Of a stretch of DNA of 42,168 nucleotides, positions 1 through 17,538 are shown piece after piece; position 1 is the stretch's first letter, and each line of letters starts with the position of its first letter. Under the pieces are notes generated by a model. The model saw only the letters and a program-made list of their open reading frames with translations, was not told where the DNA came from and did not search any database. Origin of the DNA: Bacillota bacterium (GTDB lineage: Bacteria > Bacillota > SHA-98 > Ch115). The stretch is from the NCBI GenBank assembly GCA_012842565.1, contig DUSO01000018.1, positions 1 through 42,168 of the forward strand, given 5' to 3'. The position numbers and the translations under genes are program-made.

Positions 1-1
1 C

Positions 2-1020: not shown

Positions 1021-1377
1021 GGGAATTGCGGCTGGGGCTATTTCTGGTAAAATTAGGATGTCAACTCCTAAAACCCTAAGACGCATTGCGGAGGGGGTGC
1101 GGTATTGAGCTGTAACTTCAATTCTCTAGAGTCAAGCAAGGCTCAATACCAGGCCCGTTCTTGAGGCGAACAGGCAGCTCAGGCAGGAGTTTCCCGTAAA
1201 AGGCTGTTTATCTTCGGTTCCGTTGGCTGCAGAAGGCAGACGAGAGCCTTGCGTCGGCCAAGAGTCTATATGATGAGTTATTCCACTTGGCTACACCCCC
1301 AATAGGGATAAAATGGAAGGAGGCAATGGCGGCTTTCCCTCTAGCTAAACTGAGGAGATTCGCCGCAACGTGAACCT
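1021..1377. other. Intergenic stretch without a recognisable gene
   Basis: No credible reading frame fills these 357 bases. The clearest structure is a perfect 10-bp inverted repeat, GGTATTGAGC at 1101-1110 and GCTCAATACC at 1141-1150, with a 30-base loop. It lacks a T-tract, so it is not a standard terminator. A short open run around 1164-1200 reads LRQEFPVK, faintly like the start of IS3-type transposase OrfB proteins, but it breaks at once and is too weak to call an insertion-sequence remnant. An AGGAGA sequence at 1353-1358 lies rather far upstream of the next start codon. Confidence 0.4.
1101..1150. repeat. 10-bp perfect inverted repeat with 30-base loop
   Basis: GGTATTGAGC at 1101-1110 is the exact reverse complement of GCTCAATACC at 1141-1150. 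It could be a widely spaced regulator site or an RNA hairpin in the leader of the gene at 1378. No T-run follows, so termination is unlikely. Confidence 0.5.
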
Positions 1378-1869
1378 ATGGAAACTCCAGAGATCAGAGG
1401 CATCAAGGTAGAACCATTGACGGCCGAGGCTTTCAGGCCTTTCGGGACGGTCCTCGAGATTCCTTCGGGTAAACCGGATAATTTCTCGGACGTGTTCGCA
1501 ATGTGGCAGGACCTGGCCGACATCGGGGTTCTGGGAGAAAAGGCCAGCATAGTCTACCTTGTGAACAAGAGAAGGGCTTTTGTCCTTGACATCATGGAGA
1601 GGCACAAGAATGGGATTGAGGTGTTCTTCCCGGTGAAAGGGCAGAGCATCCTTGCAGTGGCGCCTCCCAGCAAGGACCTGCCAAAACCTGAGGACATCCG
1701 GTGTTTCTACATTGACGGCACAAAACCCTATATCATCAACAAGGACGTGTGGCACTGGTCAACGTTCCCCCTGGGAGATGAAGCGGGGTTTTTCCTCATA
1801 TTCAAAAAAGGACTCCCCAGGGAGGATGTAGAAGAACAAAAGATGAATCCAATCCCCATCCTTCTCTAA
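1378..1869 (+). CDS. Ureidoglycolate lyase family protein (AllA-like)
   Basis: A 163-residue protein opening with IKVEPLTAEAFRPFGTVLE, the usual N-terminus of the ureidoglycolate lyase (PF04115) cupin-like family, and carrying the late block NKDVWHWSTFPLG that lines the active site in this family. The classical enzyme splits ureidoglycolate into glyoxylate and urea in allantoin breakdown; many homologues outside purine operons have unknown substrates. An in-frame TGA at 1351-1353 leaves ATG 1378 as the only reasonable start, although the nearest SD-like AGGAGA (1353-1358) is about 20 bases away. A family regulator and an amidohydrolase flank it, which fits a purine or ureide salvage locus, but no allantoinase or urease is visible. 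Confidence 0.75.
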   Translation: METPEIRGIKVEPLTAEAFRPFGTVLEIPSGKPDNFSDVFAMWQDLADIGVLGEKASIVYLVNKRRAFVLDIMERHKNGIEVFFPVKGQSILAVAPPSKDLPKPEDIRCFYIDGTKPYIINKDVWHWSTFPLGDEAGFFLIFKKGLPREDVEEQKMNPIPILL

Positions 1870-1899
1870 CGAGCGGCATCGCGCAAATGGCGTCAAACG

Positions 1900-1913
1900 G
1901 CATCACGTGATGC
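1900..1913. repeat. 14-bp perfect palindrome GCATCACGTGATGC
   Basis: A perfect 14-bp palindrome between the AllA-like gene and the amidohydrolase. Size and placement fit an operator for a dimeric regulator, but no promoter was pinned next to it. The rest of 1870-2080 is GC-rich and holds no gene. Confidence 0.4.
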
Positions 1914-2083
1914 TAAGCCAACCGCGCCGGCCGACGACGGCCGCGGCTGGGCTCGGGGCATCCGAGGATACGCGGGTGTGATTCGGTTCCCGGTGCCTGG
2001 GGGTGGGTCACGGCGGTGATCACCCTAATTCGCCTTGGACATGCAGGTATGCATGCCGGGGGCACGGGGGTGGAGACCTGGTG

Positions 2084-3535
2084 ATGGCTCTCGGAAATGG
2101 GCACCCGGTAGATAGCCCAGTACCATTTGGCGACCCGGCGGGCGGTAAGCTTCCTGTGGACTACCTCATAGCAGGCTCCATGGTCCTCACCCTTGACCCG
2201 CAAGGTACAGCCTATAGAGACGGGGCGGTCGCGACCCGCGGTGATGTGATCCTTGCTGTGGGCCCGGCGCGTGAAATCGAGGCAAGGGTCGCACCTAGGC
2301 GGAGAATTGATGGCAGCGGCAAACTGGTTATACCTGGGTTGATCAACGCCCACTCGCACATGGCCATGGCCCCGATGAGGGGGATCACCCATGACGTGCC
2401 CGGCGTGATCTACAGCATCATGTGGCCGGTCGAGGCGTCCCTGAGAGAAGAAGACATCTATGACCTCGCAATGCTGGGGGTGGTGGAGAGTCTCAGGGCC
2501 GGGACGACGTGCCTGGTAGACCACTACTTCTTCATGGAGGAAATCGCCCGCGCGTGCCAGGATGCGGGGATCCGCGCCGTCCTGGGCCATACTGTGATGA
2601 GCTCTGATGGGCCCTTTACGGGCGAGGACCAACTTCGTGCAGCCTTTGATTTCGTCGAACGCTGGCATGGCAGGTCTCCGCTAATCACTCCCTGGTTTGC
2701 CCCGCACGCGCCTGATACAGTAAGGCCTGAATGGCTCCGCGAGATGGCCGCGGCCTCCGGGAGATCCGGTGCGGGAATACACCTCCACCTTGCCCAGACC
2801 GAGCGCGAGGTGGAGGTCGTTCGGAGCCGCTACGGCCGGACGCCCGTAGAACAGCTGGCTGAATGCGGAATCCTCGGCCCAAGCACTCTCGCCGCACATT
2901 GCATTTACCTTACTGAGTCGGATATCGACCTCCTGGCCCAAAGCGGGACTACCGCTGTCTTTTGTCCCACCGTGCATGCAAATACCGGGAAGGTTTGCCG
3001 TGCAGCTCATCTTATGAGACGGGGTGTCAGGGTTGGGCTCGGGAGCGATTGTGCTTCAAACAATGACGACATGAACATGCTCGAGGAAATCCGGATGGCG
3101 GTAGCTGTCCAGAATACAATCGAAGGCCATCCGGGTGCGCTTACTGCAGGTCAGGCCTTGCGCATGGCTACTACGGTTAATGCCGCTGCCATCGGTCAGG
3201 CGGACAGGCTCGGCTCGATTAAGCCCGGTTACCAGGCGGATCTAGTGCTATTGGATATCAGAAAGGCAAGATGGACACCGCTCATAAACGCGGAAGCCAA
3301 TCTCGTGTATTGCGGGTCGGAAAGCGATATAGAGATGGTCTTCGTCGCAGGGGTCCTGGTTGTTGAAAACGGGAGGGTTACGACCGTGGAAGAGGACGAG
3401 GTTGTGCGGCGCGGTGCGGCAGCATGCCAGCGCATCTTTGACCGGGCAGGCCGTGCAATGCCCCGGTTTCGTAACCTGCCCGCAACCGTGTTTGCAGACG
3501 GCCCTCAGGGCGTGTTTTCTACAGATTTCTTTTGA
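2084..3535 (+). CDS. Amidohydrolase, SAH/5-methylthioadenosine deaminase–chlorohydrolase group
   Basis: A 483-residue protein of the metal-dependent amidohydrolase superfamily. The metal ligands are visible in order: HSHM near residues 90-93, HLHLAQT in the middle, AAHCIYL, and GLGSDCASNND. The C-terminal GSIKPGYQADLVLLD block is the beta-sandwich typical of the S-adenosylhomocysteine/MTA deaminase, guanine deaminase and atrazine chlorohydrolase group. The exact substrate cannot be assigned; an aminopurine or aminated heterocycle is likely. The frame stays open upstream to 2003, but GGTGGAG just before 2081 favours GTG 2081 or ATG 2084, close to the conserved DYLIAGSMVLTLDP beginning. With the AllA-like neighbour it could belong to purine salvage (inference). 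Confidence 0.85.
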   Translation: MALGNGHPVDSPVPFGDPAGGKLPVDYLIAGSMVLTLDPQGTAYRDGAVATRGDVILAVGPAREIEARVAPRRRIDGSGKLVIPGLINAHSHMAMAPMRGITHDVPGVIYSIMWPVEASLREEDIYDLAMLGVVESLRAGTTCLVDHYFFMEEIARACQDAGIRAVLGHTVMSSDGPFTGEDQLRAAFDFVERWHGRSPLITPWFAPHAPDTVRPEWLREMAAASGRSGAGIHLHLAQTEREVEVVRSRYGRTPVEQLAECGILGPSTLAAHCIYLTESDIDLLAQSGTTAVFCPTVHANTGKVCRAAHLMRRGVRVGLGSDCASNNDDMNMLEEIRMAVAVQNTIEGHPGALTAGQALRMATTVNAAAIGQADRLGSIKPGYQADLVLLDIRKARWTPLINAEANLVYCGSESDIEMVFVAGVLVVENGRVTTVEEDEVVRRGAAACQRIFDRAGRAMPRFRNLPATVFADGPQGVFSTDFF

Positions 3536-3715
3536 TCCTCTTGCAGGAATTACTCAAGAGATGAATAAATATGTACTGAATAAAAGACGCCAATCAGGCG
3601 GATACCAACAGGATAGATCAGGCCAGGTGATATCCGGGGGAGAGACCTGCCGGGTTAGGGCGGCGAGATAGGCCGGGGAATGAGCCAGTCCGGGCGGTGC
3701 GTCATAATGGCGGGT
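3536..3715 (+). other. Leader region upstream of the glycine riboswitch
   Basis: About 180 bases between the amidohydrolase stop and aptamer 1. The promoter of the gcv operon should lie here; the AT-richest part (about 3550-3590) is the best place for it, but no hexamer pair stands out. No gene is seen. Confidence 0.35.
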
Positions 3716-3923
3716 GCTCCGGAATGGCGGGGCGAGTCCTATAACCCAAGCCGCGGCAGGCGCCGAAGGAGCAAGGTCGGAGTGCCGTACGGCGTGCCGT
3801 CCTCCGGCTGAAACTCTCAGGCAGACGTACTTCGGGTTGATGGCCCTCTGGAGAGAATCCCCGGCCCTATTCGGCCGGGGGCGCCGACGGGGTAATGCAA
3901 TCTCTCAGGCTGTGGGACAGAGG
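3716..3923 (+). promoter_or_regulatory. Tandem glycine riboswitch (two gcvT-type aptamers)
   Basis: Two copies of the glycine aptamer core lie in series. Aptamer 1 has CGCCGAAGGAGCAA at 3761-3774 and AAACTCTCAGGC at 3811-3822. A linker leads into CTCTGGAGAG at 3846-3855, which opens aptamer 2. Aptamer 2 has GCGCCGACGGGG at 3881-3892 and ATCTCTCAGG at 3900-3909. Its P1 helix can be drawn exactly: CCTCTG 3845-3850 with CAGAGG 3918-3923. Order and spacing match the cooperative tandem class found upstream of gcv operons. Aptamer 1 is less canonical in its first paired strand (GCGAGTC instead of GGAGAGTC). Glycine binding is expected to raise expression of the operon that starts at 4036. Confidence 0.93.
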
Positions 3924-3968
3924 AGACAGGCAGCGGGGTTTTGCTTGTTTTCTTCTGTCCCTTGTTTT
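3914..3968 (+). terminator. Riboswitch expression platform: intrinsic terminator sharing the aptamer-2 P1 strand
   Basis: GGGACAGAGGA (3914-3924) pairs with TCTTCTGTCCC (3951-3961) with one G·U, and the helix continues with ACAGGCA (3926-3932) against TGCTTGT (3942-3948), leaving a 9-base loop. TTGTTTTT follows at 3962. The left strand includes CAGAGG (3918-3923), the 3' strand of the aptamer-2 P1 helix, so aptamer folding and terminator folding exclude each other. This predicts a glycine-activated ON switch. Confidence 0.85.
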
Positions 3969-4035
3969 TGGTGCAACTCGTTACCACAACTGCTGTCACG
4001 AAACCTTTATAAAAGCTCGCCGGGAGGGAGATTGG

Positions 4036-5142
4036 ATGAAACGCACGCCGCTATATGACGTGCACGTTGGCCTTGGTGCCCGGATGATCGGGTTTGGGGG
4101 GTGGGAGATGCCCGTCTCTTACACGGACATCGTTGAAGAACACCTGGCGGTAAGGAGCAAAGCTGGGCTGTTTGACTTAAGCCACATGGGAGAAATAGAG
4201 ATAAGCGGGACGGGGGCACTGGAGCTTATCCAGCGTCTTACGACCAATGATGCGTCGAAGCTCGCCCCCGGGCAAGTGCAGTATTCCCTGATGTTATACC
4301 CGGACGGGGGCATCGTCGACGACCTCCTGGTATACAGGTTCGCGGGTCATTACATGCTGGTGGTCAATGCATCGAATACAGGTAAGGATTTTGAATGGAT
4401 CAGAGAACATGCGAGCGGGGATGTAGCTGTCCGGGATGTGTCCCATGAGACCGCACTTGTGGCTATCCAGGGGCCATTTTCCGAGAGCATCCTGCAAAGG
4501 GTGACTGACTTTGACCTTTCATCCCTGGGCTATTATCGCTTCGCTGAGGCCAGCATCTCTGTTTTGGATGGTAAAGCGCGCCGGGCGTGTGTCATTTCTC
4601 GCACCGGCTACACTGGCGAAGACGGGTTTGAAATATATATTGACCGCAACTATGCTCGTGAGGCCTGGGAGACGCTCCTGGAAACAGGGAAGCCTGAGGG
4701 CCTTGTGCCAGTCGGGCTCGGGGCCAGGGATAGCCTGCGCCTCGAGGCCGCATATTCTCTCTATGGTCACGAAATTAATGAGGAGACCCTGCCGTATGAG
4801 GCCGGCCTTGGTTGGGTTGTCAAGGTCGACAAGGGAGATTTCGTAGGGAGGGAGGCCCTCCTAAAAGCTAAGGAAAGAGGTCTTGTCCGGAAACTTGTCG
4901 GGCTCGAGCTTGTCGAGCGCGGGGTGCCCCGCGCAGGATTTAAGATCGTCAAGGGAGCCGAAGAGGTGGGCTACCTCACAAGCGGCACGTTCTCCCCATC
5001 GCTCCAGAAGGGAATCGGCCTGGGGTACGTGTCCACTCAGGAAGCCAGGCCGGGAAATGAGCTTGCGGTCATGATAAGAAATAAGCCAGTCGGTGCGAAG
5101 GTGGTAAAGACTCCCTTTGTGGAGTCACACGTGAAGAAGTAG
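4036..5142 (+). CDS. gcvT: Glycine cleavage system T protein (aminomethyltransferase)
   Basis: A 368-residue T protein. It takes the aminomethyl group from GcvH-bound lipoamide, releases ammonia and forms 5,10-methylene-tetrahydrofolate. It begins MKRTPLYDVHVGLGARMIGF and continues with FGGWEMPVSY and the folate-site region FDLSHMGEI, followed by the typical DDLLVYR, SRTGYTGEDGFEIY and GLGARDSLRLEAAY blocks. The frame is open further upstream, but that part is riboswitch and terminator; GGGAGGGAG just before ATG 4036 sets the start. First gene of the operon gcvT-gcvH-gcvPA-gcvPB; 20 bases separate it from gcvH. Confidence 0.96.
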   Translation: MKRTPLYDVHVGLGARMIGFGGWEMPVSYTDIVEEHLAVRSKAGLFDLSHMGEIEISGTGALELIQRLTTNDASKLAPGQVQYSLMLYPDGGIVDDLLVYRFAGHYMLVVNASNTGKDFEWIREHASGDVAVRDVSHETALVAIQGPFSESILQRVTDFDLSSLGYYRFAEASISVLDGKARRACVISRTGYTGEDGFEIYIDRNYAREAWETLLETGKPEGLVPVGLGARDSLRLEAAYSLYGHEINEETLPYEAGLGWVVKVDKGDFVGREALLKAKERGLVRKLVGLELVERGVPRAGFKIVKGAEEVGYLTSGTFSPSLQKGIGLGYVSTQEARPGNELAVMIRNKPVGAKVVKTPFVESHVKK

Positions 5143-5162
5143 CCATACGAGGGGGGACTAGC

Positions 5163-5555
5163 ATGTATCCTGAGGACTTGAAGTATACCGAAAAGCATGA
5201 ATGGGTGAGGCTCGAAGGGAATAGAGCGGTGATAGGGATTACAAGCCACGCCCAGGACCAACTGGGGGCCATAGTTGGAATCGGGCTGCCACAGGTAGGG
5301 GACGTTGTGGAGCAAGGGCAGGAGCTGGCGGATATAGATTCTATGAAGACGGCTGATGTGATTTACGCTCCTGTGAGCGGCACCGTCGTTGAGGTGAACA
5401 AAAAGCTGGAGGAACACCCGGAGCTTATCAACGACGATCCTTACGGCGAGGGATGGGTGGCGGTGATTGAGATATCCAACGAGGAGGAGATAGGCTCCCT
5501 CATGAGCGCCGAAGAATATCGCGCCCTGGTGGAGGAAGGGGAGGAGGGCCATTGA
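5163..5555 (+). CDS. gcvH: Glycine cleavage system H protein (lipoyl carrier)
   Basis: A 130-residue H protein that shuttles the aminomethyl group between P, T and L proteins on a lipoyl arm. It starts MYPEDLKYTEKHEWVRLEGN, and the lipoylation site is K62 in ADIDSMKTADVIYAPVSG. The family more often has ESVK at this site; here it reads DSMK, with the acceptor lysine intact. In Firmicutes GcvH is also the first acceptor of octanoate from LipM, which matters because a LipM-like gene lies at 18714. The preceding SD is GGGGGG at 5152-5157. The stop overlaps the TTG start of gcvPA. Confidence 0.96.
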   Translation: MYPEDLKYTEKHEWVRLEGNRAVIGITSHAQDQLGAIVGIGLPQVGDVVEQGQELADIDSMKTADVIYAPVSGTVVEVNKKLEEHPELINDDPYGEGWVAVIEISNEEEIGSLMSAEEYRALVEEGEEGH

Positions 5556-7012
5556 ACTACATCCCCAACACAGAACGGGATCTTAGGGAAATGCTGGCGG
5601 CGATAGGGGTCGGGTCGGCCGAAGAGCTTTTCTCTGACATCCCGGCTGCTGTCCGGCTCAATAGAGACCTTGACCTCCCGCCGGCGCTGTCCGAGTACGA
5701 GCTCATAAAGCACATGAGCGGGCTTGCGGCGCGAAACCGTGGCGTCGATGATTATGTATCATTTCTGGGGGGCGGCGCATACGACCATTTCATCCCGAGC
5801 GCACTATTCACCATCCTTGGACGGTCGGAGTTCTACACAGCCTATACACCCTACCAGGCGGAAGTGAGCCAGGGCGTCCTCCAGTCGATATTTGAATACC
5901 AGTCGCTCATATGCGAGCTTACCGGCATGGATGTCAGCAATGCATCACTCTACGACGGGGCGACAGCCGTAGCCGAGGCGGCCACCATGGCGGCAAGGCA
6001 GACTCGCCGTAATGAGATTGTGATATCCCGCGCAGTTCATCCGGAGTATAGAATGTTGCTTAAGACCTATGCGCATGCCCTTGGCCTGCCCGTAAAGGAA
6101 ATCAGTTTCTCCGGTGGTATAACCGACCTCGAGGAGCTCAAGTCCGCCGTCACCGGTGCTACCGCATGTGTGATACTGCAGAGCCCCAACTTCTTTGGGT
6201 GCATTGAGCCCATGGGAGAGGCGGCGGATATATCTCACGCCGAAGGGGCGCTCTTTGTAGCGTGCGTGGACCCCATATCATTGGGGATCTTGGCACCCCC
6301 AGGCGAGTATGGTGCGGACATCGCCATAGGCGAAGGACAGGCGCTTGGCAATCCTCTCAATTTCGGTGGCCCCTACCTGGGCTTCCTTGCGTGCAAAAAT
6401 GAGTTCATTCGAAACATGCCGGGGAGGGTGGTGGGCGAGACCACCGACCCTAGGGGGCGGAGGGGATTTGTGCTGACGCTCCAGGCGCGCGAGCAGCACA
6501 TAAGAAGGGAAAGGGCTACCTCCAACATATGTTCCAATGAGGCGCTGTGCGCCCTTGCGGCTACCGTCTATCTCTCGCTTCTGGGAAAAAGCGGCATACG
6601 TGAGGTGGGCGAGCTTTGCGTGCAGAAATCCCACTACGCGGCAAAGAGGATAGCATCCATCCCCGGGTTTTCTATGAAGTATTCGGCTCCATTCTTCAAA
6701 GAATTCGTCATCGGCTGCCCCGTCGAGCCCTCATCCCTGATAATAGAGCTTAAGGGACAGGGGATCCTGCCAGGCATAGAGCTTGCCAGGATGTTGCCGC
6801 AAGATGAAAATCTAAAAGACGCGCTCCTTGTGGCCGTGACGGAAAAGCGGACAAAGGAGGAGATTGACAGGCTCGTCCAGGCTATGGCGCAATGTGCCGG
6901 GGCTGCCGTGCAGTCTGATGTCGGGGCTACAACACAGCCCGCCGGGGATACCCGGACAGAACGAGCGGCTGGCGACAGGGGACCCGCCTGCGGAAGAGAG
7001 GGATTGGCATGA
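5552..7012 (+). CDS. gcvPA: Glycine dehydrogenase (decarboxylating) subunit 1
   Basis: A 486-residue alpha subunit of the two-part P protein, which with GcvPB decarboxylates glycine and loads the aminomethyl group onto GcvH. Family landmarks are [12 protein letters not shown] at the start, [32 protein letters not shown] and NFGGPYLGF. The start is TTG 5552, overlapping the gcvH stop (TTGA) and preceded by GGGGAGGAGGG. The last ~35 residues (from about 452) are an Ala/Gly/Thr/Arg-rich tail beyond the usual ~445-450-residue length and look like low-complexity extension. The stop overlaps gcvPB (ATGA). Confidence 0.95.
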
Positions 7013-8601
7013 TCATCGAGCCAGAAGGACTCGGGCCAGGGGTGGAATCAAGAGCTATGGCGCAGAACAAGGCGAGGGGTCCAGAGCCCCTGATCTCGGA
7101 GCTGTCTTCGCCGGGCCGCAAGGGTTACTCGCTTCCGCCAATGGATGTGGAGGCAGGCAGGCTCGAGGACCTAATCCCGGAGGCCTACCTGCGGAAGGCC
7201 CCTCCTGGGCTGCCCGAGGTTTCAGAGGTTGACGTGGTTCGTCACTTCATCCGCCTCTCGCAGAAAAATTACGGCGTCGACGTCGGCTTTTACCCGCTCG
7301 GCTCCTGTACAATGAAATACAACCCGAAAGTGAATGAATACCTGGCCTCGCTCCCCGGCTTCATGTCATTACACCCTTATGAGCCGGAAGACCTGGTGCA
7401 GGGCGCACTCGAGCTCATGTATGAATTGCAGCAGTATCTCTGCGAAATCGGGGGCATGGACAGCGTGAGCCTCCAGCCCGCCGCAGGCGCCCATGGGGAG
7501 CTCACCGGGCTCCTGATGATCCGGGCATACCATGAGTACAGGGGAGAAGGCCAAAAAAGGACCAGGGTTATCGTCCCTGATTCAGCACATGGCACCAATC
7601 CAGCAAGTGCTGCCTTTTGCGGGTATAAGGTGGTAGAGGTTAAATCGGACGACAGGGGAGGGGTAGACGTCCGGGCCCTCCGTGAGATCATGGACGATTC
7701 CGTTGCGGCGCTGATGCTCACAAACCCCAACACCCTGGGCCTGTTTGACGAAAACATAGTAGAAGTCGCCGAGATCGTCCATGAGAAGGGCGGTCTCCTC
7801 TACTACGATGGCGCCAACATGAATGCTATAATGGGAATGGCAAGGCCGGGGGACATGGGCTTTGACGTGCTCCATTTCAACCTGCACAAGACCTTCTCCA
7901 CCCCCCATGGCGGTGGAGGGCCGGGCAGCGGGCCGGTAGGCGTCAAGAAAGCGCTGGAGCCGTTCCTTCCTGTGCCTGTCGTGGCGAGGAGGGATGCCCG
8001 GGCGGGTGACGTCCAAACCGGGAATGAACAGGCGGGGAACGGCCGGGTAGAGGACAGCCGGGGCGAGGGAGCCCCCCGGTATTTCCTTGATTACGACCGG
8101 CCGCTCAGCATAGGCAGGGTCAGGTCTTTTTACGGGAATTTCGGGGTGATGGTCAAGGCCTATGCATATATCCGGGCGCTTGGAGCTAAGGGCCTTAAGG
8201 AGGCGAGCGAGGCGGCCGTGATAGCCGCCAACTACGTGCTCAGCAGGCTCAAATCCCACTATCATGTGCCTTATGATCGCCATTGCAAGCACGAATTCGT
8301 CATATCTGCAAAGAACCAGATGGAATATGGGGTCCGTACGTCCGACATCGCCAAGGCTCTCCTGGACTACGGTTTCCATGCGCCGACCATTTACTTCCCG
8401 CTCATCGTCAAGGAGGCCATAATGGTGGAGCCGACCGAGACCGAGAGCAAGGAGACGCTGGATGCGTTTTGTGAAGCGTTGATCGAGATCGCGGACAAGG
8501 CGCGGAGTGACCCGGAATACCTGCACCAAGCGCCTCACACTACCGTAGTCGGCCGGCTGGACGAAGTAACTGCGGCGAGGAAGCCAAAGCTAAGGTGGTA
8601 G
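7009..8601 (+). CDS. gcvPB: Glycine dehydrogenase (decarboxylating) subunit 2
   Basis: A 530-residue beta subunit carrying the pyridoxal-phosphate lysine, K294 in [18 protein letters not shown]. Other landmarks are [35 protein letters not shown] and [11 protein letters not shown]. Two oddities: about 27 extra residues at the N-terminus before the conserved [15 protein letters not shown], and a Gly/Asp/Arg-rich insertion of about 30 residues at 327-357, just where most homologues go straight from VPVV to YYLDYDRP. The start ATG 7009 overlaps the gcvPA stop; ATG 7057 is an alternative closer to the family length. No dihydrolipoamide dehydrogenase (L protein) gene is in the window. Confidence 0.95.
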
Positions 8602-8682
8602 GTAGACCTTGGGATTGGCCGGGTTGCTTGTGCCTTAGATCGGGGTGTATCCAACACGGGAATTGCCAGGGACATCACTTTT

Positions 8683-9474
8683 GTGAATCCAACTAGGACA
8701 GCGAGCCTTAGCGTCACGGGGACAAGATGCTCGCTCAACTGCGCGCACTGCGGCGGGCATTACCTGCGGCATATGCTCCCCCCACAACTTTGGGGACGGC
8801 TTGACCCTGGACATACCACGAGCTGCCTTGTAAGCGGGGGGTGTGATGTGACGGGGAAGGTCCCAGTCCTGGCGTATAAGCACGAATTGCAGGCACTTGC
8901 CCGGGATTTCCGGCTAAACTTCCATGTCGGGCTTATGGACGAAGACGAGGCGAGGGAAATCTCCCCCCTCGTCTCCGTCGTTTCGTTCGATTTTGTCGCC
9001 GAGGATGAGACCATTCGCGAGGTCTACGGGGTCCGGCGCACGGCCGGCGATTACCTGGCCACCTATGAGATGTTAAGGAAGCACGTGCGGGTCATTCCCC
9101 ATATCTGTATCGGCCTTCGCGGGGGCAAGATATCAGGCGAGTATGCCGCCATTGATGCACTGAGCGAGATCGGCGCAGAGGCCATCGTATTCCTCGTTCT
9201 CATCCCAACTAGGGGAACGAGGTATTCCGGTATCGACCCGCCTCCCGTAGGAGAGGTTGTCAAGGTCATTCAGTATGCCCGTGAGGCTATGTCCACGTCG
9301 CCGATCTACATAGGGTGCATGAGGCCGCGGGGCGAATACCGGGCAAGATTAGATCAGGATGCGGTGGAGCTTGGGGTAGACCGGATCGTGGCCCCGGCCA
9401 GAGAGGCGGTGGTGCTCGCCCGCGAGCGGGGCCTTAACATCACGTGGCGCGAGGAGTGTTGCGCTTTTGCATAA
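8683..9474 (+). CDS. Radical SAM protein, LipS1/LipS2-type split lipoyl synthase component (COG1856-like)
   Basis: A 263-residue protein with the radical SAM cluster motif C16-x3-C20-x2-C23 in VTGTRCSLNCAHCGGHYL, the pattern of archaeal-type 'biotin synthase homologues' (COG1856). Proteins of this kind form one half of the two-protein lipoyl synthase described in Thermococcus kodakarensis. Further cysteines that could hold an auxiliary, sulfur-donating cluster are C48, C54, one in IGCMRPRG and C259/C260 at the C-terminus. The gene follows gcvPB by 81 bases with no terminator seen, so it may be the fifth gene of the glycine-riboswitch operon. The start is probably GTG 8683 (AGGGAC about 10 bases upstream); the same frame stays open back to the gcvPB stop. 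Radical SAM membership is secure; the lipoyl role is inferred from family and context. Confidence 0.75.
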   Translation: MNPTRTASLSVTGTRCSLNCAHCGGHYLRHMLPPQLWGRLDPGHTTSCLVSGGCDVTGKVPVLAYKHELQALARDFRLNFHVGLMDEDEAREISPLVSVVSFDFVAEDETIREVYGVRRTAGDYLATYEMLRKHVRVIPHICIGLRGGKISGEYAAIDALSEIGAEAIVFLVLIPTRGTRYSGIDPPPVGEVVKVIQYAREAMSTSPIYIGCMRPRGEYRARLDQDAVELGVDRIVAPAREAVVLARERGLNITWREECCAFA

Positions 9475-9497
9475 AGATGGGGAGGTTATGAACCGTA

Positions 9498-11393
9498 GTG
9501 GTTTATCAGCTTCTTGACGCGACAACACTGGAAGACATGCTCTCCACATATCATCTTGAAGATCTCAAGCAACTGTTGAGGCTGGCAAGGCCGCTCATAG
9601 AAGGCAGGCTGCCAACTCGAAAGGACGATATCGTCGCTGTCCTCTGCCGGTTGATGTCACGCGAGAACCTTCCAGGAATGTGGAGGCGCCTTACTGACCT
9701 CCAGAAGGCGGCGGTTGCGGAGGTCCTGTACAGTCCCATCAATAAACTGGATAAAGAGATGTTCAAGGCGAAGTATGGGAACAATGAGAAGAGGGACGAG
9801 CATGAGTTCCATAGGGACTCCTCTCGTGAGGATAACGAGGATGGCCTGCGTTCCGGCTACCTTCCGCTCTTTATTGGTCCTGATGGGAGAATGCCGCTCG
9901 ACCTGAGGGAAGCCTTGCGTAGTTTCGTTAAACGTCCCGCCGATGCTCGCGTAGAGACACTCGATGATCTTCCGGAGATGCCCGGCCTTAAGCGTGTGGA
10001 GACAGCCCGCCAGGCGATCCATGAACTCCCTGCCATCCTGCGCCTCGTAGAAATGGGCAAGATCAGGGTTAGCGCCACCACGCAGCGGGTAACTGCTGCC
10101 GGTATCAGGGAAATCACGAGGGTGCTTTTTAATGGGGATTTCTACCCGGCTGGCCGCGGGGTGGCCGACCACGCAGAGGCCGACCGCGGGGTGGCTGGCC
10201 GCGGGGAGGTTGATCATAGGGCGTCAGCCGGGCGTAGGCTGGATGAATATCAGCCTGAGGTTGGACCAATTCGCGCCTTCGCCTGGCCCCTCCTTCTCCA
10301 GGCTGGGAATCTAGCAGCAGTCGTTGGCGGGAAACTGGGATTGACGTCTGCCGGGCGGAAGGCCTTGAATGCCCCACCGCATGAGATCTTGCGGAGTATC
10401 TGGAGGCGCTGGCTCAAGACCACCATTATCGATGAATTCAGCCGCATCGAGGCCATCAAAGGCCAGCGGGCTAAAGGCGGCCGCCACATGACCGCACCTT
10501 CAGGGCGGCGGGCTGCTATCGCTGAAGCCTTAGCTGAAGTTCCTGTAGGCGAGTGGATCGGTGTTGAGGAGTTTGGCCGTTTCATGAGGGCCTCGGGCCA
10601 TATGTTTGAGGTAACCCGCAACGAGTGGAACCTCTACGTGGGTGACCCCCAATATGGAAGCCTGGGGTATGCAGGATTTGGCGGATGGAATATCCTGCAG
10701 GGGCGGTACCTGATGGTGTTCCTGCTGGAATACGTCGCGACACTGGGCATGGTGGACGTGGCCTATACAAATCCGGAAGAAGCCCCGCGTGATTTCGGGA
10801 ATATCTGGGGTACAGATGACCTCTTGTACCTGAGTCGCTATGATGGCCTGCGCTACATCCGCCTGAATAACCTGGGAGCTTACTGCCTTGAATTGGTAGA
10901 AGACTATGCCCCGGAGCCGGAGGATGAGCGCAGGAGCATTACTGTCCTGCCAAACCGGGAGATCATTGCCCCGCCTCAGCAGCTCTTGCCTACCGATGAG
11001 CTGCTCCTGGCGCGTTTTGCCCGCAAGACCTCAGAGTCAGCTTGGTCCATGGATCTCGGCACCATACTTGCGGCCGTCGAAGGTGGGCTGGATCTGGACG
11101 AGATAAGGAGATTCCTCACGGTCCGTAGCAAAAACCCGCTACCTGACACGGTTCGCGATCTCCTGGAGGATGCAGCAAGGCGACTTAAGCGGCTTACAGA
11201 CTGCGGACAAGCCCGTCTGATTGAGGCCGACGATCCCGCCCTGGCCCTGGAGATCGTGAACAACAGCAGCCTGCGTGGACGTTGCCTGCTGGCGGGCGAA
11301 CGCTACATTGTTGTGCCATCCGATTCGGAGGGGCTATTCCGGTCGACGTTGCGCGAGCTTGGATATATCTTGTCCGGGGCTTCCAAGGTATGA
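9498..11393 (+). CDS. Large uncharacterised protein, possibly helicase-associated (XPB/Ssl2 N-domain-like)
   Basis: A 631-residue soluble protein not confidently recognised. It starts at GTG 9498 with GGGGAGGT at 9479-9486. The N-terminal ~110 residues contain short helical, leucine-rich segments (LKQLLRLARPLIEGRLPTRK) like those of SAP-type or helicase-associated modules. The C-terminal region with RSITVLPNREIIAPPQQLLP, then LLLARFARKTS and ...FRSTLRELGYILS, resembles the 'helicase conserved C-terminal' (PF13625, Helicase_C_3) proteins of Actinobacteria and Clostridia, but no Walker motifs are present. Around residues 220-245 is a Gly/Asp/Arg/Ala-rich insertion made of near-repeats of CCGCGGGG. 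It lies between the LipS-type gene and the glycoside hydrolase and shares no obvious task with either. Confidence 0.6.
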   Translation: MVYQLLDATTLEDMLSTYHLEDLKQLLRLARPLIEGRLPTRKDDIVAVLCRLMSRENLPGMWRRLTDLQKAAVAEVLYSPINKLDKEMFKAKYGNNEKRDEHEFHRDSSREDNEDGLRSGYLPLFIGPDGRMPLDLREALRSFVKRPADARVETLDDLPEMPGLKRVETARQAIHELPAILRLVEMGKIRVSATTQRVTAAGIREITRVLFNGDFYPAGRGVADHAEADRGVAGRGEVDHRASAGRRLDEYQPEVGPIRAFAWPLLLQAGNLAAVVGGKLGLTSAGRKALNAPPHEILRSIWRRWLKTTIIDEFSRIEAIKGQRAKGGRHMTAPSGRRAAIAEALAEVPVGEWIGVEEFGRFMRASGHMFEVTRNEWNLYVGDPQYGSLGYAGFGGWNILQGRYLMVFLLEYVATLGMVDVAYTNPEEAPRDFGNIWGTDDLLYLSRYDGLRYIRLNNLGAYCLELVEDYAPEPEDERRSITVLPNREIIAPPQQLLPTDELLLARFARKTSESAWSMDLGTILAAVEGGLDLDEIRRFLTVRSKNPLPDTVRDLLEDAARRLKRLTDCGQARLIEADDPALALEIVNNSSLRGRCLLAGERYIVVPSDSEGLFRSTLRELGYILSGASKV

Positions 11394-11405
11394 GGTAGCT
11401 GGTGT

Positions 11406-13628
11406 ATGGTCGATAGGAATGCATCCAAGCATGGGGTTGTCCTAAGAGGGTCGCCTGTCTTTAGAGGATCGCCTGCCCGCTTTGTCTTAGGCGTCAATTA
11501 CTGGCCAAGGAACCATGGCGTCCAGATGTGGAAGGAGTGGGACCAAGGCGAGATCAGGCAGGAATTTGCGGAGATTTCCGCCCTCGGACTGGATGTCGTG
11601 AGGGTATTTCTCCTTTGGGAGGACTTCCAGCCCTCCCCCGAGGTCGTGGATGAACAAAATCTCGGTAAGTTCGACGAGTTGCTGGCCATTGCCCGCGACT
11701 GCGGGCTTAAGATTGTCCCTACCTTTTTCACCGGTCACATGAGCGGGGAGAATTGGGATGTTCCCTGGCGACATGGGCGCGATCCCTATTCCGATCCATT
11801 CATGCTGAGGGCTCAGGCGAAGCTCGTTGACGTCTTCGCGAGGCGATATGCAGAGGAGAATACTATACTGTTTTGGGACCTCGCCAACGAGCCCGATATA
11901 TTCGTGCGGCCACGATGTCGCCACGCCGCGTGGCTCTGGGCGGACTTCATGGCCAAGACTATACGGATTTGGGACCGTAACCACCCTGTCACCCTCGGAA
12001 TTCACATGCAGTCGCTCTCCGATGACAACGGGATAAGGCCTGAAGACATGGCTGAGTCCAATGACTTCCTCTGCATGCATGCGTATCCACTGTATACCGA
12101 GCTTTGTCCAGAGCCCCTGAATGCGTTTCGCAGCACATATCTTGTCCCGTTTTGCAGCAAGCTCACAGAAGGAATGGGCCGTAAGTCGGTCTTCTTCGAG
12201 GAATTTGGCGGGACCACGCAGATGGTTTCCGAGGATATATTGGCGGGGTACTATTCAGCTACACTATACAGTCTCCTGGCCAACGGAGCTCTTGGCGCCC
12301 TCGCCTGGTGTTTTGGCGACTTCACCGTGGGCGAGAGGTTACCATACAACTCCACGCCTTATGAAGCCGGGTTTGGCATTACAAAAGTGAGCGGTGAACC
12401 CAAGAAGCCAGCCTTGGTCATGAAGCAACTTGCCTTGCTCGCAAGGCGGGTCGGCCCGGTTTCGCCCTTCCCTGGCGCTCCTCGCGCCGCGATCCTCATC
12501 CCGCGGCGGTATTATGACAACTATGACCCGGACGTCACTCCGGAGAGGAACATGAGGGCGCTGTTTAATTCCTTCCTGCTGGCGAAGCAGGCCGGGCTGA
12601 ATCCGGACCTGGTGCGGCTTGATTCGGACCTCGAAGGCTATGATATCTACTTCCTCCCGTCATTTTCAAGGAGGGGGAGCCTCTATGTATCCGACTGGAA
12701 GCGGATTACGGAGCTTGTGCACGCGGGAAAGACACTTTACTGCTCCTATGGGGGGATAGCCATAGAGGGGTTTGACGAGGTCTTCGGCATCGAGGTTGTC
12801 TCTACGTCGTACAAGTGGCCGGGGATGAGAATCGGAATTTTTGATGATTTGGGCGGCCTCGAATGCGAGACTGCCGGGTTTGAGGACAAACTCGTCCTTC
12901 CCATTCCCGGTGTCGCGCTTGGCCGTACGAAGGTGCTGGACGTGAGGCCGGCTGGTTGCAGGGTCGTCGCCTCTTATCTTGCCGATTCTCATCCTCTGGT
13001 CCTCCATTCGCGGGGGACGGCATCTCGGAAGGCTCGTTATGCTTGCGAGGAGGATCCTTGTGAGAATTGTGAGAAGGTACAGGTTGAGATACCCTTACAT
13101 GGAAGCCCTGCTATCGTCGTAAATGATTTCGGGCGCGGGAAGACCATCCTTGTCACCTTCCCCTTGGAGTTGGCCATTTCATATGAGGTAGGCGTCTATG
13201 AGACCAGCCCCTGGTACAGGGTTTACAGATATGCCGCAGGGCTTACCGGTAGGAGGTCGGCATTCACTTGTACAAACCCCTTTATCGAAATAATGCCCTT
13301 GATTAAAGGCACCGGAGCCAGCAAGGAACCAGGTGGAGGGCCCGCGCTTCCCGATTACTCAATCCCCGACTACTTGATCGTAGTGAATCATGATAGTTCG
13401 CCCAAGGTAGCGGACCTTCAGGTAGGGGCACCATGGGTCGACCGGCTACGCAGGCTCACCGTATCCGATGCCGGTGACGTCGAACCCTTTGATATTTCGG
13501 GCTTCAGTCCAAATGCTCCAATTGACGGGATTGTCCTTGACGGGACTCTCCCGCGCGTTTTCAGTACCCGCCTGGATGCGAATGAGGGTTGCATACTGCA
13601 GGTGGTGGTCAGGCTGCGTGAGGAATAG
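11406..13628 (+). CDS. Glycoside hydrolase of clan GH-A (GH5/GH42-like, beta-mannanase-type active site)
   Basis: A 740-residue protein without a signal peptide, so probably cytoplasmic. The first ~330 residues form a (beta/alpha)8 glycosidase: LGVNYWPRNHGVQMWKEWD, VVRVFLLWEDFQP, the acid/base site WDLANEPD (E162) and the nucleophile site FFEEFGG (probably E266). The middle (about 370-520) looks like the GH42-type glutamine-amidotransferase-like trimerisation domain (ILIPRRYYDNYD, YDIYFLPS, CSYGG), and the end is beta-rich. The likely role is hydrolysis of beta-linked gluco-, manno- or galacto-oligosaccharides. Start ATG 11406 follows GAGGT by about 10 bases and lies 13 bases after the preceding stop. 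An 18-bp tandem repeat encodes RGSPVF/RGSPAR near the N-terminus. Confidence 0.85.
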   Translation: MVDRNASKHGVVLRGSPVFRGSPARFVLGVNYWPRNHGVQMWKEWDQGEIRQEFAEISALGLDVVRVFLLWEDFQPSPEVVDEQNLGKFDELLAIARDCGLKIVPTFFTGHMSGENWDVPWRHGRDPYSDPFMLRAQAKLVDVFARRYAEENTILFWDLANEPDIFVRPRCRHAAWLWADFMAKTIRIWDRNHPVTLGIHMQSLSDDNGIRPEDMAESNDFLCMHAYPLYTELCPEPLNAFRSTYLVPFCSKLTEGMGRKSVFFEEFGGTTQMVSEDILAGYYSATLYSLLANGALGALAWCFGDFTVGERLPYNSTPYEAGFGITKVSGEPKKPALVMKQLALLARRVGPVSPFPGAPRAAILIPRRYYDNYDPDVTPERNMRALFNSFLLAKQAGLNPDLVRLDSDLEGYDIYFLPSFSRRGSLYVSDWKRITELVHAGKTLYCSYGGIAIEGFDEVFGIEVVSTSYKWPGMRIGIFDDLGGLECETAGFEDKLVLPIPGVALGRTKVLDVRPAGCRVVASYLADSHPLVLHSRGTASRKARYACEEDPCENCEKVQVEIPLHGSPAIVVNDFGRGKTILVTFPLELAISYEVGVYETSPWYRVYRYAAGLTGRRSAFTCTNPFIEIMPLIKGTGASKEPGGGPALPDYSIPDYLIVVNHDSSPKVADLQVGAPWVDRLRRLTVSDAGDVEPFDISGFSPNAPIDGIVLDGTLPRVFSTRLDANEGCILQVVVRLREE
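11445..11480 (+). repeat. 18-bp imperfect tandem duplication inside the glycoside hydrolase gene
   Basis: Units 11445-11462 (agagggtcgcctgtcttt) and 11463-11480 (agaggatcgcctgcccgc) follow directly and match over most positions. They encode RGSPVF and RGSPAR, before the conserved LGVNYWP beginning. Similar 18-bp units occur in two other genes of this window. Confidence 0.65.
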
Positions 13629-13666
13629 CATGCATACCGGGATCGCTCTGCTCGATGCCGGCAGAG

Positions 13667-14917
13667 TTAGGCCTTTGCCGCATCACCGGCCGATGGGGGA
13701 CACATCCTATCAAATCGCTCCACGGCAAGTTTAAGCAAGATCGCATGATTGAGATTCTTGGCCGGTTCCAGGCCGGTGAGTTCTCTTATCTTGGCCAGGC
13801 GGAAAATAAGGGTGTTCCTGTGAATATAGAGGTTCCTGGAAGCTCGGGCTATGTTCATGTTGGTGTCAATGAGGGCCTTGGCGGTGCGAAGCAAGTCCAG
13901 CTGCTGTCCCGGCTTTTTCCGGAACAGCCTGTCGGCGATTGGATCCACGAAGTGGGCGAGCGTTGTTTCGTCTATTTCCCCCATCAGGTAGTTCGCGAGG
14001 ATATCCGGGTCATAAATAAACTGAACCTGCCTTGCAGTGTCGGTTTGGCTGAGTTGACCGAGCCTGAGTATTGCCAGTGCTTCCTGATAAGAGGCTTTGA
14101 GCCCGCCGGGGTTCAAGTGGAGGCTGCCAATTGCCACGTTGACCCCGTGCCCTCCAAAGGCGTCTATCATGATTTGGTGCAGTTTCAGGGCCCACCGCCG
14201 TAGTTCGTCAACCGCCCGCTGCTCAGGCGTCCCTATAGCCTTCAGTATTACAAGCCGCGTGTCGCTCAGGTATGCTGAGATATCTTGGGATGTCAGTGTT
14301 TGTGAGGAGCCAAGCAGGTCCAGGACCCTTTCTCTTGTCCTCGAGGCTACAAGGTCGGCTTCCGAACAGACTGCCTTCAGGCGAATAAGGAGGCCGGCGA
14401 TATCTACTATCGTGACTACCCGTGGGAGGAGCATATCATAGCCCAGGAGATGCCCCCATTCAATTATTGCATCGGGGTCCTGCAGTGCTTTGTCGGACAG
14501 GACCTCCCTCATAAACTGTTCCCTCACCCTATATTGCGACTGTACCTGTTCCCGGAGGGCCTCTCGCTCCAAGAGAAGCTCTACGGCCATTCTGACTAGC
14601 TTGGCGATATCCCTCACCTCGTCAGGATCGCCAAATACTCCCACCACGCCGACGACCCGGTCGTTAATCTTGATGGGCATATTGACTCCTTCTTTTGCGC
14701 CGGGAAAGTGGTCTACCTGGTCCGGTCGTATCTCCACCGTCTCCCCAGACTTGATTACGTCGTCGGCTCCCTTATGGTAGGTAAACAGGCGGTGCCTGTG
14801 CCCTGAGCCGATTATGATGCCCCTATTATCCATAATGTTCACATTTCTTTGGACGATCGCCATCGTGGCGTCGACTATCCTTTGCGCAAGCTCATGTGTG
14901 ATTATCACACATCTCAC
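13667..14917 (-). CDS. cdaR: CdaR-family (sugar diacid-type) transcriptional regulator
   Basis: A 416-residue regulator with three parts: an N-terminal sugar-diacid recognition domain (ITHELAQRIVDATMAIVQRNVNIMD, then IIGSGHRHRLF, NMPIKINDRVVGVVGVFGDP), a degenerate GGDEF-like middle, and a C-terminal PucR-type helix-turn-helix (TAKALIDTNMNIARASRNLYIHRNTLIFRL, quoted in parts). In Escherichia coli CdaR senses glucarate/galactarate/glycerate. No diacid catabolic gene is adjacent here, so its target may be elsewhere or be itself. The start is GTG 14917 or the second GTG at 14908, which has GGGGTGAGA just upstream. Convergent with the glycoside hydrolase, 38 bases apart. Confidence 0.88.
   Translation of the reverse strand: MRCVIITHELAQRIVDATMAIVQRNVNIMDNRGIIIGSGHRHRLFTYHKGADDVIKSGETVEIRPDQVDHFPGAKEGVNMPIKINDRVVGVVGVFGDPDEVRDIAKLVRMAVELLLEREALREQVQSQYRVREQFMREVLSDKALQDPDAIIEWGHLLGYDMLLPRVVTIVDIAGLLIRLKAVCSEADLVASRTRERVLDLLGSSQTLTSQDISAYLSDTRLVILKAIGTPEQRAVDELRRWALKLHQIMIDAFGGHGVNVAIGSLHLNPGGLKASYQEALAILRLGQLSQTDTARQVQFIYDPDILANYLMGEIDETTLAHFVDPIADRLFRKKPGQQLDLLRTAKALIDTNMNIARASRNLYIHRNTLIFRLAKIRELTGLEPAKNLNHAILLKLAVERFDRMCPPSAGDAAKA
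14894..14912. promoter_or_regulatory. 19-bp perfect palindrome over the cdaR translation start
   Basis: ATGTGTGAT-T-ATCACACAT is a perfect palindrome around position 14903, covering the first codons of the CdaR-type gene. It resembles an operator for a dimeric regulator, with TGTGA and TCACA arms but only three bases between them, unlike the six of a CRP site. Autoregulation is a reasonable guess. Confidence 0.5.
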
Positions 14918-15217
14918 CCCAATGCGGGGAGAGCCGATCCTGCCGCCCTCCGCATCGACTACTCCCGTGGTCTCTCAAGGCGGCGCCCCTCAATTTTTGG
15001 ATTCGCCTCCTGCCGCGGGGATTCCTTCTCCTGGGCACCTGGCACAAATGCCGGCTGAATAATTGGGCCCTTGTTGTATATTTCGTCAATTGATGCGCTC
15101 AAACCATGTCATTAAAATTATATTAGCATATGCCCACATAGCGTAGCGACGATGAATTGTTGCGGGCGACTCCTAAGCGGCGCATCTAGGAGTAAAAGCG
15201 AGTGAGTGAAAGCACAA
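14918..15217. other. Divergent intergenic region between cdaR and the MBL-fold gene
   Basis: No gene is seen. The right two thirds are AT-richer and hold a candidate promoter (15090-15118) reading right. A perfect 7-bp inverted repeat, ACTCCTA at 15169-15175 and TAGGAGT at 15187-15193, lies in the leader and would tie up the only good SD-like sequence (TAGGAG) upstream of ATG 15218. The left third is GC-rich leader of cdaR. Confidence 0.4.
15090..15118 (+). promoter_or_regulatory. Candidate sigma-A promoter
   Basis: TTGATG (15090-15095), a 17-base spacer, then TAAAAT (15113-15118). It reads toward the MBL-fold gene at 15218 and would give a leader of about 90 bases. Confidence 0.45.
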
Positions 15218-16061
15218 ATGACGGTGACCATCATCACGCTCATCGAAAACCGTCAGGGAACTCATACCCGGCTTCTGGCCGAGCACGGGTTGTCCTTTTT
15301 TCGTAGAGGTCAAGGGTCAGCCACCCTTTCTTTTTGATACGGGTCAGAGCGACAGCCTAATATGGAATGCCGGGCAGATTGGTGTAAGCCTCAAGGACGT
15401 AGATACCGTCATACTGAGCCATAGCCACTACGACCATACCGGCGGGCTAATTCCCTTTGTTAAGAAAACCAAACCCAAGGAGGTGTTGGTGCCTCGGGAC
15501 TTTTTTGACCCCAAGTACAAGGTGAATGGCATTAAAAGAGAATTCATTGGCAACAGTTTTTCCAAGGAGGAACTCGCCTCCCAGGTGGAAAGGGTGACTG
15601 GTGTCCTGGATGACCTATATGAGCTTCGCCCGGGCGTCTTCGTAGCTACCAACATCCCGGCAGTAACGCCCTATGAAGGCATCTCCGAACCATTTTTTAT
15701 CCTGAAAAATGGGGCTCTTGTACGGGACGACTTCAGGTCCGAATTGGTAGTGGTCATCATGACTCCTGAGGGGCTTCTGGTAATGTGCGGGTGCGCCCAC
15801 GCGGGCATTGTGAATATCGTGCGCCACGTCTCACGGCTTACAGGTATATCCAGGATTCGGGCTGTACTGGGGGGCACGCACCTGGTGCATGCGAGTCGCG
15901 CCAGGATCCAGAATACCGCTATTGACCTCAAAACAGCGGGCGTGGAAAGCATAGGAGTTTCTCACTGTACTGGGCAGCAGGCTGAAAGACAGTTGGCGAA
16001 GGTGTACGGCGATCGGTTCTTTTCAAACAATACGGGCACAATGGTCGAGTTCGACTTATGA
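15218..16061 (+). pseudogene. MBL-fold hydrolase (COG1237-like), interrupted by a one-base frameshift
   Basis: The N-terminus reads MTVTIITLIENRQGTHTRLL and AEHGLSFF in frame from ATG 15218, then meets a stop. One base further on, the protein continues as VEVKGQPPFLFDTGQ, the metal-site motif LSHSHYDHTGGL, then MCGCAHAGIVNI and VSHCTG, to TGA 16061. The break is at a run of six T at 15296-15301; five T would restore one frame of about 280 residues. The family (COG1237, 'RFA-phosphate synthase-like' metallo-beta-lactamase fold) has poorly known substrates. A sequencing or assembly error is as likely as a real mutation, because every downstream motif is intact. A start at 15483 would lose the metal-binding histidines. 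Confidence 0.75.
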
Positions 16062-16122
16062 GGCTAAAGTCGAATCCGGCCAAGAGGTCGAATTCGATTA
16101 GTGCATCCAGGAGGTGGGAGAG

Positions 16123-17538
16123 ATGAGTAGGCAACCGTTAGAGATTCAGCAACCCCCCAGAGGGTGGTCTATGCTTCTCATGGTCGGTCCTGGAATCGTC
16201 TGGACGGGCATGGCAATCGGTGGCGGCGAGCTTGTGCTCAATCCACGCGTTGGTGCAATATTTGGGATAACAACGCTCTGGATGCCCCTCCTGGCGATAG
16301 CGCTGAAATGGTTCATGGTTAATGAAATCGGCCGCTGGAGTATCTACACCGGTACTTCGATCCGAGAAGGGCTCGCTCTCCTCCCCGGTCCACGCAAGTG
16401 GCTTTCGTGGATCATACTCTTGAGTGGGCTCTACCTGGGCGCTGTGCACATAGGCGGCCTTGTCGCAATGGTGGGAGTGATTACCTCCACGATTCTGCCG
16501 TTCTTGCCCCCTTATGCATGGGCCGTAATAATGATGCTATCATACGTCCTCCTGACATGGAGTGGACGGTATAGCCTGGTAGAGCGCATAATGATGGCCT
16601 GTGTGGCTATGCTTACGATCACCACGGCTTTCATCACTTTTCGGATATTCCCGGGATGGGGCGCCATCCTCGACGGATTCCGGTTCATCGTGCCTACATC
16701 GACGCCGGAATGGGCGGTAGAAAACTTCAAGATATCACCCAATCCACTAGTGGAGATACTTCCAGCCATGGCCTTCGCCGGGGCCGGAGCCATCAATAGC
16801 CTCTGGTATTCTGACTGGGTACTGGCAAAGGGATTTGCCTCTGCCGGTTACTATAACCTCGGCTCATCTTCATTTGATCTTGCTCAACTCAAGGAGCTTG
16901 GCCGGAATGAGGTCGACAAGCTCCGGGGATGGTACAGGGTCATGTTCCATGACGCCCTCTGGGGAGGGAATGTGCTCACGCTTGTGGTTACAGGATTTTT
17001 CGTGTTAAACGCCACGGTAATCCTGCATCCCCTCCATCTAGCCCCGGCAGGGGTCAATTTCATCATGACCCTCTCCAAGACTTTTACGGAGGTTCTGGGG
17101 CCGGGAGCGAAATGGCTATACTTGATAGGCGCCTGGGCAGTTATTTATAGCACAATGGCGACCGTATATGACGGGTATGCGAGGCTCATCGACAATTCTA
17201 TAAAGATATGCCTGCCCAATTGGCGCCAGTATCTCTCGATACCTCTCCTCTGGAGGTACAGGATCTGGGTGCTCTATGGCACCCTAACCAATTTCGTTCT
17301 CGTCTACATGTTTAGTGCGATTCCCGTAGGTTTCCTCCAAGCAGCTTCGTGGGTTGAGGGCACATATCTCCTGCCGATCGTTGCTTTCGGCATAGCCTAT
17401 CTAACTCGCGTGATCCTCCCCAGGCTCTACCCGCCTGAAATGGCCGACAAGGTGCGGCCTCATTGGGCAATGACCGCGGGCACCGTAGCTGCAGGTATGT
17501 TCTATCTCATTCTCATTATCTATGCCCTGATTCTATGA
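16123..17538 (+). CDS. Nramp-like metal ion transporter with non-canonical metal site
   Basis: A 471-residue membrane protein with about 11 hydrophobic segments, in the Nramp fold family. TM1 reads VGPGIVWTGMAIGGGELVLN, where classical Nramp metal transporters have DPGN; the TM6 region reads ILPAMAFAGAGAINSLWYSD, where they have an A-x-x-MPH motif. Both classical metal-binding elements are therefore altered, as in several distant 'Nramp-related' clades of unknown substrate. GTG 16114 is in frame, but GGAGGTG at 16110-16116 is better placed for ATG 16123. It follows the MBL-fold gene by 61 bases and may be co-transcribed with it. Confidence 0.8.
   Translation: MSRQPLEIQQPPRGWSMLLMVGPGIVWTGMAIGGGELVLNPRVGAIFGITTLWMPLLAIALKWFMVNEIGRWSIYTGTSIREGLALLPGPRKWLSWIILLSGLYLGAVHIGGLVAMVGVITSTILPFLPPYAWAVIMMLSYVLLTWSGRYSLVERIMMACVAMLTITTAFITFRIFPGWGAILDGFRFIVPTSTPEWAVENFKISPNPLVEILPAMAFAGAGAINSLWYSDWVLAKGFASAGYYNLGSSSFDLAQLKELGRNEVDKLRGWYRVMFHDALWGGNVLTLVVTGFFVLNATVILHPLHLAPAGVNFIMTLSKTFTEVLGPGAKWLYLIGAWAVIYSTMATVYDGYARLIDNSIKICLPNWRQYLSIPLLWRYRIWVLYGTLTNFVLVYMFSAIPVGFLQAASWVEGTYLLPIVAFGIAYLTRVILPRLYPPEMADKVRPHWAMTAGTVAAGMFYLILIIYALIL

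Follow-up and report, generated by a model that had tools for sequence, protein, structure and literature searches.

In the 42,168-nucleotide stretch of DNA analysed here (the window), lipS1, which encodes one of two radical SAM enzymes of lipoyl assembly, probably stands at the end of a glycine-riboswitch unit, gcvT-gcvH-gcvPA-gcvPB-lipS1, presumably the remnant of a seven-gene unit that included lipS2 and a ligase gene. Both the content of the gap in front of lipS1 and the gene order point indirectly to co-transcription of lipS1 with gcvT-gcvPB in the window. The features of this unit are as follows:

3720-3923, + strand, tandem glycine riboswitch (Rfam RF00504, two aptamers, gathering score 32)
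3914-3969, + strand, predicted riboswitch terminator (20-pair hairpin at 3914-3961, then TTGTTTTT; fold z -2.20)
4036-5142, + strand, gcvT (NCBIfam gcvT, 424.3 bits, cut-off 235.85)
5163-5555, + strand, gcvH (NCBIfam gcvH, 156 bits, cut-off 115.85)
5552-7012, + strand, gcvPA (Pfam GDC-P, 432.3 bits)
7009-8601, + strand, gcvPB (Pfam GcvP2_C, 102.5 bits, and GDC-P, 46.2 bits)
8602-8682, + strand, gap between gcvPB and lipS1 (81 bases, with no convincing promoter or terminator)
8683-9474, + strand, lipS1 (GTG start, 263 aa; NCBIfam LipS1 NF053742, 298.2 bits, cut-off 230)

The glycine riboswitch assumed in the initial annotation is present as a tandem RF00504 element, the aptamers of which score 35.4 bits (3720-3842) and 39.9 bits (3845-3923), and gcvT, gcvH, gcvPA and gcvPB lie consecutively on the + strand behind it. 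The motif CCTCTG at 3845-3850 can pair with CAGAGG at 3918-3923, closing aptamer II, and this CAGAGG is also found within the 5' arm of the terminator hairpin. A crude terminator test is passed by the stretch 3914-3969 and also by 28.5% of its shuffles. The known glycine riboswitch is an on-switch. With glycine bound, the closing helix of aptamer II would retain the strand needed for the terminator at 3914-3961; with the terminator blocked, RNA polymerase would read through gcvT, gcvH, gcvPA and gcvPB into lipS1. Such read-through is proposed because of the known on-switch behaviour together with the CAGAGG overlap in the leader of the window.

Between the stop codon of gcvPB (8601) and the GTG at 8683 there are 81 bases, as originally described, and the absence of a hairpin plus T-run from this gap was likewise confirmed by a negative terminator test of 8602-8682 (shuffled rate 0.085). 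The reading frame is indeed open from the gcvPB stop codon, but this is no evidence for an operon because 2160 of 5000 dinucleotide-shuffled gaps (43%) are open too. GTG 8683 is the sole ATG, GTG or TTG in the lipS1 frame from the gcvPB stop to 8683. A consensus scan found no promoter-like site in the gap at 8602-8682, its only match there being a 5-pair stem (8608-8623) of the kind expected by chance; across positions 1-14000 the scan returned 13 terminator-like sites, this stem among them, against 11.4 in shuffles. The fold of the gap region is no better than that of its own shuffles (z -0.13). The two genes share one frame, with a single stop codon separating them, and a gcvPB-lipS1 read-through fusion was considered and dropped for lack of support.

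The main alternative is that a separate promoter, within the gap or immediately upstream of it, drives lipS1, with the adjacency of lipS1 to gcv reflecting ancestry only and with no glycine control here. A gap of 81 bases allows a start site for lipS1, and the unit is already broken downstream; against this, no promoter-like pair was found in 8500-8690 (0.72 expected per shuffle) and the gap holds no terminator. Related genomes bear on the same question from both sides. The gcvPB and lipS1 genes overlap or lie no more than 5 bases apart in 21 of 60 relatives, the full range running from a 37-base overlap to a 783-base gap (distances are approximate, with start codons set by rule). On the other hand, where the distance from the gcvPB stop to the aligned lipS1 start is at least 40 bases, terminator-like sites are enriched, occurring in 11 of 50 gaps against 3.9 expected. 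Because of this enrichment in the longer gaps, the lip genes may be partly uncoupled from gcv in some lineages; six of the 11 relatives concerned are named Desulfosporosinus. Overall, a separate promoter for lipS1 in the window is unlikely, and transcription from the riboswitch leader is the preferred reading.

Gene order in relatives lends good support to lipS1 being part of a glycine-riboswitch gcv operon. A sample of 85 LipS1 regions was used, 65 from named genomes and 20 from the class of the window; the named loci were picked by likeness to the window protein, and the sample leans to kin of the window. The gcvPB gene is found directly upstream of lipS1 (same strand, within 1.5 kb) in 60 of the 85 regions, namely 45/65 named regions and 15/20 class regions, with a further 20 lacking an upstream gcvPB and 5 being too short to tell. 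The 15 linked class regions represent the main LipS1 copy in each of the 15 relatives sampled, and the five other class regions a second, distant LipS1 copy. Mapped on the LipS1 protein tree, the gcv label requires 4 changes, where shuffled labels need 18.0 on average (0/500 as low), a contrast that is inflated by near-copies. The lipS2 start occurs within 350 bases of lipS1 in 56 of the 60 linked relatives, and two of the four exceptions lie at contig ends. Linkage of gcvPB and lipS1 is common in this sample, but the gene order needs a correction in that the usual unit is gcvT-gcvH-gcvPA-gcvPB-lipS1-lipS2-ligase, which is split in the window.

A number of other arrangements were observed among these regions. 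In regions L115-L119, from the class of the window, there is a second LipS1/LipS2 pair with 32-35% identity to that of the window, which clusters with archaeal rows in the LipS1 tree; close to the pair in L115 are an Rrf2 regulator and a ligase with an attached DUF116 domain. In two Chloroflexota loci (L082, L093) the order is reversed, lipS1-lipS2 preceding gcvT-gcvH-gcvPA (and gcvPB as well in L093); these genes seem to have been brought together independently there. In two Desulfofundulus loci (L038, L045) a gcvH-like gene directly precedes lipS1-lipS2, with no other gcv gene near and no glycine riboswitch. In locus L092, also with no glycine riboswitch, the lipS1 and lipS2 matches are fragmented and alternate with each other, as might be seen in a broken or duplicated region.

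An Rfam search was conducted on 48 of the 65 named loci (40 in the main set and 8 more). Of the 40 main-set loci, 37 were testable, having gcv genes upstream of lipS1 and the leader present; those left out were L054 (no upstream gcv), L093 (lip before gcv) and L066 (leader beyond the contig). The gcv genes follow a glycine riboswitch in 35 of these 37 loci, and in seven of the 35 (L063, L064, L068, L072, L074, L080, L097) it is of the glycine-GGAnGA form, RF03166. By Rfam it is missing from the testable loci L078 and L092, the former having a weak match to riboswitch model R1 (E 0.0023) where Rfam gives none at E 0.5. The 27 aptamers underlying model R1 include that of L051, which makes the R1 match in L051 circular. 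Within the class of the window, a glycine riboswitch was identified in 15 of 17 genomes; it was not found in G002, which still has the gcv-lipS1 order, or in G009, for which no LipS1 over the cut-off was found. In the 14 relatives in which it could be placed, the riboswitch lies 78 to 748 bases upstream of the gcvT match.

As a control, 10 LipS1 loci without an upstream gcvPB (L054, L093 and 8 more) were searched, and a glycine riboswitch was present in only one. This exception is L051, from the metagenome-derived Peptoclostridium sp. AA_UR_SE bin6, in which the stretch 9674-12596 comprises an aptamer (9674-9776; Rfam 55.3 bits against a gathering score of 32), then a hairpin plus T-run, and then lipS1, lipS2 and the ligase gene. 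No gcv genes occur within the 20.8 kb of the L051 region, and the gene upstream of the riboswitch is on the opposite strand. The L051 leader has a fold z of -3.44; its terminator is positive in a test in which 0/200 shuffles are positive. The arrangement of lipS1-lipS2-ligase behind both riboswitch and gcv genes is found in named genomes, for example those of Pelosinus fermentans, Sporomusa ovata and Desulfosporosinus.

Unlike in most relatives, lipS2 and the ligase gene are not in the gcv-lipS1 unit in the window, where lipS1 and lipS2 are 8.2 kb apart with five genes between them, one on the opposite strand:

9498-17538, mixed strands, the five genes parting lipS1 from lipS2, listed next
9498-11393, + strand, helicase-like gene (Helicase_C_3, 35.6 bits)
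11406-13628, + strand, GH5-like gene
13667-14917, - strand, regulator gene
about 15250-16061, MBL-like gene
16114-17538, Nramp-like gene
17681-18724, + strand, lipS2 (NCBIfam LipS2, 350.5 bits, cut-off 270)
18714-19583, + strand, lipoate/octanoate-protein ligase gene (Pfam LplA-B_cat, 132.5 bits, cut-off 27)

The other 16 genomes of the class contain no match to the helicase-like gene, and 8 of them contain GH5-like matches, never on the contig of the main LipS1 copy. In the closest relative, G001, an oxidoreductase-like gene (named by eye) separates lipS1 from lipS2. The simplest account is that the seven-gene unit was opened up in the lineage of the window, with lipS1 remaining with gcv. Downstream of lipS1, on its strand, come the helicase-like and GH5-like genes after gaps of 23 and 12 bases; both may be passengers on the lipS1 message. 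The MBL-like gene appears to be split over two frames (its likely start versus its HSHYDH motif), seemingly an assembly error or a broken gene. The start of the ligase gene overlaps the end of lipS2, with ATG 18714 chosen as start codon where the open reading frame list has TTG 18558. No Rfam riboswitch was found before lipS2; a promoter-like pair (17645-17674) very close upstream of its start weakly suggests a separate transcription start.

The lipoyl-type radical SAM gene of the initial annotation can be named LipS1 by the curated model NF053742, which is the only NCBIfam match of the 8683-9474 protein at E 0.001 and is exceeded by 68 bits over its cut-off. There is no Pfam match at E 0.001 and no relative with a solved structure at E 0.01. 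The Cx3Cx2C radical SAM motif (C16, C20, C23) is kept in 86/86 aligned rows. The residues proposed for the auxiliary cluster of LipS1 are one His and three Cys, two of the latter adjacent (PMC9585515), and their counterparts in the window protein are H140 (86/86), C212 (84/86), and C259 and C260 (83/86 each). Motif and spacing were used to relate these positions to the published numbering, in an alignment with a Thermococcus sp. row (L099) and not T. kodakarensis. Work on Thermococcus enzymes has shown that LipS2 puts sulfur on C8 and that LipS1 then does so on C6 (PMC9585515). The window LipS1 is accordingly annotated as the putative enzyme for the second sulfur of the lipoyl group, at C6 of the 8-mercaptooctanoyl carrier. 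That 8683-9474 should instead encode a different radical SAM enzyme, such as a biotin-synthase-like one, is highly improbable: LipS1 and LipS2 were formerly annotated as biotin synthases (PMC9585515), but the sole model match, the kept auxiliary-cluster residues and the presence of LipS2 and the ligase in the genome all speak against it.

The partners of LipS1, namely LipS2 and the ligase, are both encoded in the genome (97.8% complete), which has one each of LipS1, LipS2, ligase domain and GcvH over cut-off. LipA was considered as an alternative lipoyl synthase and rejected, its two weak matches both falling short of the cut-off. Two other biotin/lipoyl-domain matches were identified in the genome, a small protein and a membrane-fusion-type protein (both named by eye); the small protein has a biotin-type motif and adjoins a biotin-carboxylase-like gene. 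One of these two being of biotin type and the other of membrane-fusion type, whole-genome searches leave GcvH as the sole lipoyl acceptor found. The dihydrolipoamide dehydrogenase is encoded on a separate contig (527.9 bits).

Following the steps published for other organisms, the ligase of the window's bacterium would load octanoate onto GcvH, LipS2 would then add sulfur at C8, and LipS1 would do so next at C6. Since lipS2 and the ligase gene are parted from lipS1, and LipS1 alone is insufficient, glycine would directly raise only the carrier GcvH and the last sulfur step, with LipS2 and the ligase under other control. The initial suggestion of a glycine-driven rise in cofactor assembly for GcvH accordingly holds in part: it fits the lipS1 step but does not extend to LipS2 and the ligase, which are encoded 8.2 kb away with no Rfam riboswitch before them.

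Several elements of this arrangement are already known. The LipS1/LipS2-sLpl(AB) lipoate assembly pathway has been described (PMC10332631, PMC9585515), as has the clustering of bacterial lipS1/lipS2 with a GcvH gene and a ligase gene (PMC9585515). The window shares with this pathway both radical SAM enzymes and the ligase, and differs in that lipS1 trails a complete gcv set and a glycine riboswitch, with lipS2 and the ligase gene parted from it; the available portions of PMC10332631 and PMC9585515 do not mention a riboswitch. Glycine riboswitches ahead of gcv operons are also well known (PMC12452182), and the window shares with them the tandem aptamers followed by gcvT-gcvH-gcvPA-gcvPB (PMC12452182, PMC3766115, PMC6944388), although no lipoyl synthase gene is named as controlled in the accessible parts of these three papers. 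In a text that also treats radical SAM, a glycine riboswitch precedes a serine ammonia-lyase gene (PMC7835215).

A related arrangement is found in Thermacetogenium phaeum, the gcv cluster of which (gcvT-gcvH1-gcvPA-gcvPB-lpd-lplA1) ends in a lipoate-protein ligase gene and has dihydrolipoamide dehydrogenase and ligase genes where the window has lipS1 (PMC12674515). During growth of this organism on amino acids GcvT, GcvPA, GcvPB and Lpd were more abundant, whereas LplA1 was abundant under no condition although GcvT rose (PMC12674515). This pattern calls for caution, as trailing genes need not follow the first genes of a cluster.

A literature search of article texts found no description of glycine-riboswitch control over the LipS1/LipS2 pathway; supplements, such as table S5 of PMC10332631 or the additional files of PMC3766115, may list the linkage. 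The location of the LipS1/LipS2 pathway behind a glycine riboswitch may be new, the pathway itself, its clustering with GcvH and ligase genes and the riboswitch-gcv operons being known.

These results suggest that the cofactor is made when its substrate, glycine, appears, both in the uncultured bacterium of the window and in many anaerobic relatives. More broadly, the balance tips slightly towards lipoyl synthesis in many anaerobic Bacillota belonging to a glycine-riboswitch regulon that spans enzyme, carrier and charging proteins, with at least one Peptoclostridium having the switch on lipS1-lipS2-ligase alone and with LipS1 as the one glycine-gated assembly step in the window. The targets of riboswitches are usually genes for making, moving or using the ligand. 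If the arrangement proposed here is correct, a substrate-sensing switch would also govern how a protein-bound cofactor is matured for the very enzyme consuming that substrate, and the named genomes would offer a simple test system for whether lipoylation follows demand in anaerobes.
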